Of a stretch of DNA of 64,000 nt, positions 5,600 through 7,914 are shown one piece after another. The notes beneath the pieces were generated by a model that worked only from the letters and a program-made list of their open reading frames with translations, did no database searches and was not told the origin of the DNA. The number at the start of each line of letters is the position of its first letter. Within the stretch, counting starts at the first letter, position 1. Location of the stretch: positions 11,032,790 to 11,096,789 of the forward strand of contig JAKZAN010000002.1 of the NCBI GenBank assembly GCA_023053545.1, in the 5' to 3' direction. This DNA is from Lepidurus packardi (lineage: Eukaryota > Arthropoda > Branchiopoda > Notostraca > Triopsidae). Made by a program: the position numbers and the translations under genes.

Positions 5600-7914
5600 C
5601 TATACCTGGCCTTGGCCAATGGAAGATCCTCCAAACTCTCCACCGTTCAAACCGATACTATAACCCATTGAATCCTGACCTCCAGGGGGCGGAGACATCA
5701 TAGGTCCAGGAGTACCAGCCATGCTGTAAGGTGAAGAGCCAGCCGCCTTTTTGGCCGCATATAGATTGGCTTCTTCTTGTGCTTTGCCTATATTTTTCTT
5801 ATAACGAATTCGCTTGTTTCCAAACCAATTCGAAACCTGCAACAGACAAGGACACAATTAGCCTTTCCTGGATGCTTTCTTACAGCAATAATAACCAGGT
5901 CCGTAGTTTTGGTTTCACTAAGGTCAGATACAGTTAACCTCAGCGTGGAAGTCCTTTTGAACCCTCAGCATTGGCATTATAAACGCAGAAACTCTCCAAA
6001 GCGGATTTTCTTCTTTCTTCGTTTTTACAGTGAAATACGAGCGCTTTTATGGTATACAAACAACACAAACAGTACAGGCAACCATGTCAAAGAACCCGTG
6101 ACAAAGAAAGCATATACACCGATAGATTATAGTAGTTGTGCAGGTAGAAAGAGTTATAACAAAAAGAAAAAAGGTAAAAAAATGGGCAGTCTCTATCTTA
6201 AAAACAAGAGTCTAACTAGGTCAAGTCATAATAACTGCACCGTTGCAAAGAGATTTTTATAAAGAGTCGTGTCTGAGAGTTGTTGATAAAAGTTACAAAA
6301 AATTAACCACCGGCTCTTCTTTGTTTTTCCCAACGTTTTTCTTGTAACGGATGCGTTTGTTTCCGAACCAATTGCAAACCTATAAACAAGAGCACTACAG
6401 TCACGGTAACCCCCAGCAAATCAAAACGGGGCACAAACCAAACGTAACAAAAAACTTGAATCTTCCTTGCACGTTCATTCCTAAGCTCGATTACGCCCCA
6501 GCTTTATCCCGACTTTCTCAACTTACTCGTTTTCATACATGTCGTTATTATAAAAGTAAAAATCAGGTCAAAACTCCCCAAACTTGTAACCTCAAACTTC
6601 CAACTATTCTGTCCAATGCCAATGCTGGGGGTTACAAAACCTCGCACGCGTCACAAAATGCCCCCCCGACCATTCGCTTGAATATTACAATAGTAAGAAA
6701 ACAATTCTATTTACATCTTTTTCTTTTCTTTAAATTTAAAAAAAAATTTTTTTTTTGCTACGTCTTTGTTTAAGCCTCAATCTCTCGGAATATGAAAACT
6801 CTTACCTGTGATACCGTGATCCCACATTTCCGAGCTAATTCCTCTTTGGCTTCTTCACTTGGATACGGGTTGCTTAGGTGCGAGTAGAAGTATTCGTTCA
6901 ATATCTCGGAGGCTTGTTTGCTGAAGTTCCGGCGCTTACGGCTGTAACCAACACTTTGCATAAATTAACCACATTTTCAAAACTAGAAACATTTTTACCG
7001 GGCATCCAAAAATCGTGATCTGAGTATCATGACCGCTTCGCATGTGCTCTGTTTCAGCTGCATTTGTATGGAAGAGAACTTCTTATGGATAATCTGCACC
7101 ATGCGTTCGATTTCCTTAGGAGTAATGGGACGAGTGCGTGATTGCTCGCGCAACAAGTTCATAACGTGAGTGGTGAATTCATTGCACGCCTATGAAGGTC
7201 TACAATCATTTCTCTTTCTAAATTTAACTGGGGTAGACCTACCTGTTCATATTTTTCTAACTCCTGGTGATATATTTGCCTGATCTGAGCTAATTTGGCT
7301 CGATAGTCCGAGTGTTCGATAGCCGACTCGCTCTGGCCTAAACCAGGACCTGTTGGACTGGATACGGCAGCAGAAGCATTAGCAGCAGCTCCAGCACCGC
7401 CTCCTTTTTCTGGACCAGCTACGCCTTCAGCAATGAGCATGTTATCCAAACGCATTAACTGAGGATCAGGTGGTTCTTCTTCTTGTGTATTGCGAAGGGA
7501 CAAAACTAAAGGGGAGAAATTGTGCAAGTTATTAAAAGTGAAACACAAGTGAAACAGACTTTCGTACCTGTCTTTTCCTTAATTTCACATAGAACACTGA
7601 ATAAGGCTGGTTTCATCCGGTGACAGTTGAGGGTATGCTTTCTGCAACGACCACAAAAAAAAATTCCGTGTATTGGGCTGCAAAACACGAGAAAGACAAT
7701 CCTTGAATCCTTACCTAGCCTGGGCCTCATCCAAAGACTGATCTGTGATGTTCATGATTTGCTGGAGGATTTCGCCAATGTCTTGTTTTCTAGCTAGAGC
7801 TTCTTGGTCTGCATTACCACCAAGGGAATCCACCGAAGGTGGGAGACCATATGGCTGATGCATTAGGCCTACTGGAGGATTAACTGGATGCATCATTCGA
7901 CTTGGATCGTCCAT
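5600..7914 (-). CDS. exd: Extradenticle / PBX TALE homeodomain Hox cofactor
   Basis: PBC-class TALE transcription factor that binds DNA together with Hox proteins and Homothorax/Meis in the nucleus. Main form exons: 7914-7715, 7641-7568, 7505-7243, 7189-6999, 6941-6806 and 5836-5600, giving 366 residues. It starts [10 protein letters not shown] and runs through the PBC-A and PBC-B regions ([76 protein letters not shown]) with the usual Ala/Gly-rich linker. The homeodomain ([33 protein letters not shown]) carries the TALE PYP insert and is split by an intron just before helix 3. The last exon supplies [15 protein letters not shown] and the SPYSMAG...QDSMGY tail seen in insect Exd. A second possible helix-3 exon lies inside the final intron (separate entry). 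Very secure. Confidence 0.98.
6293..6379 (-). CDS. exd: Alternative 3' exon of extradenticle (second homeodomain helix 3)
   Basis: Inside the last exd intron, a clean acceptor (gtttatag) is followed in phase 0 by [20 protein letters not shown], then EEPVVNFL and a TAA stop. It could replace the downstream exon that encodes [20 protein letters not shown], giving a protein of 316 instead of 366 residues with no SPYSMAG tail. The DNA-contacting residues of helix 3 (W, F, N, R) are kept. The differences are Ser to Cys, Ile to Val and a diverged sequence after residue 60. I see no AATAAA downstream before the next exon, and an internal donor (CCG/GTGGTT) would be weak. So it is either an alternative terminal exon or a relic of exon duplication; protein-level conservation favours use. 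Confidence 0.8.
   Translation of the reverse strand, partial: VCNWFGNKRIRYKKNVGKNKEEPVVNFL

Follow-up and report, generated by a model that had tools for sequence, protein, structure and literature searches.

Exd/PBX proteins assist nearly all Hox proteins in the choice of their targets, and forms of exd have reportedly been described in the isopod Porcellio. Several described systems resemble the locus presented here in one respect or another, and they are compared with it as far as the available parts of the cited papers go. PBX1a/b (PMC11701043) and PBX1d (PMC10884236) come from the same gene family, but in these parts they arise by skipping, and none of them swaps helix 3 for a second copy, unlike the two exd forms. 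In FOXP1, the mutually exclusive exons 18 and 18b replace part of the DNA-binding (forkhead) domain, as would the exd exons 6a and 6b considered below; however, FOXP1-ES shifts the preferred DNA motif, whereas exd exon 6b leaves the base-contacting residues unchanged (PMC11701043). Alternative splicing with partly distinct functions is also found in homothorax, which encodes the TALE partner of Exd, although its micro-exon 8 is an overlapping 3/48-bp exon that lies outside the homeodomain and is no duplicate (PMC7392893). With regard to RNA control, Dscam1 exon 6 has selectors that vie for one set of docking bases (PMC8042237), as is predicted for exd, and it is unlike exd in having dozens of exons instead of two, whereas exd encodes a homeodomain protein and its exons are of unequal length. 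Searches of an open-access library pointed to no alternative recognition-helix exon in exd/PBX, and a 12-residue exon peptide did not occur in paper text there either, though such an exon may be annotated elsewhere; the words 'isoform' and 'splice' are absent from a Parhyale exd paper. Predator cues raise a set of genes in Daphnia pulex to which exd belongs, in work whose qPCR, as far as it is described in the available part, was blind to isoforms (PMC2888767).

The window analysed here is a 64,000-nucleotide stretch of Lepidurus packardi DNA, within which all positions are counted unless stated otherwise, and it belongs to a genome of 108.6 Mb in 344 contigs. It carries exd on its minus strand as seven coding exons with a conceptual product of 383 residues. 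This product matched the Pfam families PBC (2.9e-85) and Homeobox_KN (1e-16), which places it in the PBC class of TALE homeobox proteins (exd/PBX), and its homeodomain together with the start of the extension agrees with the fly Exd chain 4cyc_B of the PDB at all 73 residues compared, which illustrates how strongly the Exd homeodomain is constrained. Another PBC gene copy in the genome was considered and rejected, the next-best matches being 29-46% identical. The gene is flanked by open frames at 61-1777 on the plus strand and 1816-4624 on the minus strand, which by eye resemble fumarate hydratase and polyribonucleotide nucleotidyltransferase. The coding exons, including the two readings of exon 6b, are the following:

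7914-7715, 7641-7568, 7505-7243 and 7189-6999, minus strand: exd exons 1 to 4, together the N-terminus and PBC domain, common to both forms
6941-6806, minus strand: exd exon 5, homeodomain helices 1-2, ending ...GITVSQ in phase 0
6379-6293, minus strand: exon 6b read to the end of its open frame, alternative helix 3, 28 residues and a stop
6379-6311, minus strand: exon 6b as an internal exon of 69 nt, starting and ending in phase 0, provided that a weak donor is used
5836-5606, minus strand: exd exon 6a, encoding the canonical helix 3, the C-terminal extension and the greater part of the tail, starting and ending in phase 0
5553-5497, minus strand: exd exon 7, the final 18 residues GYDGSSMGYDPNMHVNSP and the stop

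Exon 5 ends in a strong donor (CAG/GTAAGA, last base 6806), and helix 3 starts exactly at the boundary of exon 6, in phase 0. Exon 6b sits inside the 969-nt intron that precedes the canonical exon 6a. Two helix-3 exons following exon 5 had been proposed in an earlier note on this DNA, and both are present, each in phase 0 and with an AG acceptor. That note had placed the canonical exon at 5836-5600; its start at 5836 holds, while the exon ends at a donor at 5606 and is followed by exon 7, and the stop that had been used for it falls within the intron. It had also let 6b diverge after ...NVGK and stop after eight more residues. The open frame past this point in fact runs for ten residues, the first four of which still share two (EE) with 6a. 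On the gene strand, AATAAA and ATTAAA are absent from the 200 bases past the exd stop (5497-5300), so that the canonical transcript, too, has no evident 3' end. On balance, we consider it rather probable that 6b is a regulated either/or alternative to 6a, in a Hox cofactor, chosen by competing RNA pairings.

Exons 6a and 6b form a 67-nt direct repeat of 78% identity, which begins two bases ahead of the exons. The encoded peptides differ at two residues over 18 codons and at four over 22 codons, with silent changes in 7 of the 18 and 8 of the 22 codons, so that the many synonymous differences already pointed out are borne out. The comparison of silent and replacement changes that had been suggested for the exon pair gave pS 0.76-0.78 and pN 0.06-0.11, the silent sites being saturated. 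When neutral decay was simulated with 6a fully constrained and 6b drifting, at most 3 of 1,500 runs (18 codons) and 4 of 1,500 (22 codons) resembled the data, even where the divergence (30 levels) and the transition bias (two values) were taken so as to fit best. Together with the pattern of silent and replacement changes, this simulation backs the claim of selection on the 6b protein. Exon 6b would be a dead duplicate, drifting since its origin, only with very low probability: so few simulated neutral histories resemble the exon that the simulation, at the level of sequence, rejects drift ever since duplication, a recent loss of function being compatible with it. Chance likeness of 6b to 6a was rejected by genome searches with both peptides. 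In the 108.6-Mb genome the 6b peptide matched 6b itself (E 3.3e-14) and 6a (E 9.0e-7) and nothing else, and the 6a peptide gave six matches at E<=10, of which the four besides 6a and 6b were at E 0.012 or worse. A protein scan for relatives yielded 326 pattern matches in bacterial/archaeal contigs and 34 in viral contigs, with none confirmed in either set. We propose that exon 6b arose long ago, when the first part of exd exon 6 was duplicated in tandem, and that it would have been maintained by protein selection. Its saturated silent sites predict such an age, and hence a presence of 6b in distant relatives.

Against the criteria for mutually exclusive exons, taken from the available part of PMC3228551, exons 6a and 6b encode homologous peptides (18/22 residues identical) and are dissimilar in length (231 nt vs 69 or 87 nt); both start in phase 0, and 6b ends in phase 0, free of stops, only via a weak donor at 6311. 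The acceptor of 6b was the third among the 68 AGs in 5700-6805, after the 6a acceptor and one intra-coding AG, and stood at the 97.8th percentile among the 7,661 AGs of the window. The weights of the splice scoring matrix were not trained on the Lepidurus packardi genome, and its ranks are to be read as approximate, because the six real exd acceptors span the 71st to the 99.7th percentile. The best in-phase GT ahead of the 6b stop, CCG/GTGGTT at 6311, is a weak donor; it stands at the 92.8th percentile among the 7,425 GTs of the window, real exd donors being at 93.7-99.9. Joined to exon 7 through this donor, 6b reads ...KNKEEP-GYDGSSMGYDPNMHVNSP in frame, for a protein of 329 residues by count; read as the last exon, it ends at a TAA stop at 6293 and gives an Exd of 316 residues. 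As far as the sequence indicates, 6b may either end the protein at 6293 or join exon 7 via the weak donor. Its weak or missing donor and the unequal lengths of the two exons speak against the either/or reading.

The first of these outcomes corresponds to an alternative last exon, in which polyadenylation within the intron would leave Exd ending ten residues past ...NVGK, as a tail-less form of 316 residues. This is quite possible, if somewhat short of likely. The frame remains open until the TAA, the weakest of the real exd donors still scores slightly above that at 6311, a TATAAA follows the 6b stop at a distance of 32 nt, and the Exd chain in PDB 1b8i comprises 63 residues, of which the final Ile corresponds to Val in 6b. 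However, neither AATAAA nor ATTAAA occurs on the gene strand from 6400 to 5300, where the canonical form is likewise without one, and the protein similarity of 6b to 6a ceases at codon 22, one codon short of the 6311 donor, as expected if this donor ended the exon. The alternative concerns the tail only, and is compatible with the choice between 6a and 6b by a docking site and selectors set out below.

Homeodomain positions are numbered here by the usual anchor, Trp48/Asn51. Within the homeodomain, the change from 6a to 6b affects only position 46 (Ser to Cys) and position 60 (Ile to Val), while Gly50, Asn51 and Arg55 are shared by the two exons. Each conceptual protein matches the entire Pfam homeodomain, with scores of 57.4 and 56.5 bits. 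A Hox cooperativity motif lies in the stretch just past the homeodomain, and the 6b product would be without the C-terminal extension and tail encoded by 6a. In the available parts of the respective papers, Asn51 and Arg55 are described as base contacts (PMC5240567), position 50 as setting specificity (PMC4901127), and a short fourth helix as lying directly past the PBX1 homeodomain (PMC4391845). Since the base-contacting and specificity residues are the same in both, a changed reading of DNA by the 6b form would not be expected. For the switch between full-length and tail-less Exd put forward in the earlier note, the altered DNA-reading surface finds no support and the missing tail may or may not apply; a duplicate kept by selection and poised as an alternative is supported, and the competing pairings add evidence for a regulated choice. 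By sequence, both forms would retain the PBC domain, the whole homeodomain and one fold, and the 6b form would most likely read the same DNA sequence but differ in activation, in stability or in how it cooperates with partners.

An inverted-repeat search of 5500-6810 gave 13 pairs, two of which (I1 and I6) have one partner in common. This partner and its two counterparts are proposed as the following elements:

6638-6615, minus strand: proposed docking site, 168-191 nt downstream of exon 5, inverted repeats I1 and I6
6418-6406, minus strand: proposed selector B, 27-39 nt upstream of 6b, 13/13 bases complementary to the docking site
5978-5955, minus strand: proposed selector A, 119-142 nt upstream of 6a, 21/24 bases complementary to the docking site

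The pairings of selectors A and B overlap on 13 docking bases and hence exclude each other. The two selectors are the best partners of the docking site, with pairing energies of -32.4 kcal/mol for selector A and -30.5 kcal/mol for selector B, the best partner elsewhere reaching -22.2 kcal/mol among 2,447 windows of 40 nt (9000-4000). The arrangement matches that of Dscam1 exon 6, as the available part of PMC8042237 lays it out, with docking after a constitutive exon and a selector upstream of each variable exon, and the 13-base overlap with exclusive folds predicts a competition between selectors of the Dscam1 type. This layout in the exd introns is new here, in addition to what had been noted before.

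The pairing was noticed first and tested afterwards, so the figures from shuffles and controls that follow do not have the standing of a test planned in advance. Under a score that gives more weight to G-C pairs, dinucleotide shuffles of both introns reached the observed double pairing in 0 of 10,000 cases and a weaker one in 7 of 10,000. Among control windows of the same layout, from the remaining window and 20 other genome stretches, 8 of 2,448 reached it, all in two loci (L027 and L036) that are repeats with at least 159 and 52 genome matches, respectively; the exd intron stretch matches itself only. A first, looser pairing score had been reached in none of 1,500 shuffles but in 7 of 824 control windows, and under the first, cruder score 907 of 1,500 shuffles contained some weak double site; because A/T-rich pairs swamped the first score, the G+C-weighted score took its place. 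Without mismatch, the 19-nt selector core occurs in the genome only at its two sites here; one mismatch adds no further match and two mismatches add 18 (its reversed control, 21 altogether), and the 13-mer has four, two of them here (reversed control, three). That the paired sequences in the introns derive from a transposon was considered and rejected, the selector core being exact only here and the exd intron matching only itself.

It could still be that 6b is genuinely alternative and that ordinary splicing proteins make the choice, the complementary intron sequences being incidental or serving something else. Selection on 6b would hold without any pairing, and PTBP1 controls exon 7 of PBX1 in the available part of PMC11701043. 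Nevertheless, this seems unlikely in view of the 10,000 shuffles without a double pairing, of control windows that reach it only in high-copy repeats, and of three elements that are placed where the docking model requires them.

The competing structures are also predicted by folding. In simulations of the growing RNA, docking site and selector B paired with a mean probability of 0.74-0.96 while the RNA ended between 6300 and 6000, and docking site and selector A with 0.97-0.98 once it ended between 5940 and 5700. Over the full region, the state with selector A is predicted to be 6 kcal/mol more stable (-335.6 vs -329.6), and in a fold of 6830-5800 the pairing of selector B with the docking site is nearly absent (0.0006). 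The whole of exon 6b is looped out by the predicted helix between the docking site and selector A. In the model for Dscam1 exon 6, as given in the available part of PMC8042237, selector pairing releases an exon from a repressor; applied to exd, early pairing would therefore favour 6b and late pairing 6a. Under the proposed choice by competing pairings, then, docking with selector B would favour 6b, docking with selector A would loop out 6b and favour 6a, and 6a would be the default. As selector B is transcribed first and the pairing of selector A is stronger, the balance would depend on the speed of transcription and on RNA-binding proteins. We infer that 6b is used in the animal, that pairing activates the exon and that Exd is affected. 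More tentatively, the nascent exd RNA might be a kinetic switch, which would fold first for 6b and refold for 6a after selector A has been transcribed.

The position of selector B would also allow the opposite sign. A branch-site-like TTAC lies inside it, with its A at -28 of 6b, others being at -22 and -42, and since selector B covers one TTAC, pairing there could act to silence 6b. In that case selector B would mask a branch site, and 6b would be permanently off, having worked in the past and died recently, or a poison exon whose inclusion with a stop cuts Exd output via mRNA decay. The weak donor, a length unlike that of 6a and the unaligned tail VVNFL would fit such an exon. We hold this to be quite improbable, as the silent-to-replacement pattern points to amino-acid selection, for which a pure poison exon has no use, and the frame, phase and acceptor of 6b are intact.

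If 6b is indeed the regulated alternative to 6a that we favour, one gene would give rise to two forms of the cofactor, alike in the DNA they bind and different just past the homeodomain, and the role of the conserved C-terminal extension of PBC proteins could be asked within one organism. RNA control by docking sites and selectors would then no longer be confined to surface receptors but would include a transcription factor of development. Should the kinetic switch also be true, the speed of transcription or an RNA-binding protein would set the ratio of the two Hox-cofactor forms, and Hox output would have a control point at splicing and not at nuclear entry.

The two repeat loci among the control windows have features of their own. 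The stretch L027:2201-3200 (G000:C2:8002201-8003200) contains long inverted repeats and recurs as minus/plus pairs; 100% identical pairs lie exactly 8,399 bp apart on C6, on C3 and twice on C2, and a further pair on C5 is 8,393 bp apart, at 98%. By its appearance it is a transposon that was active recently and has long terminal inverted repeats. The stretch L036:3801-4800 (G000:C3:7003801-7004800) belongs to a repeat family of ~660 bp, with 52 matches listed including itself, the others being 68-91% identical.
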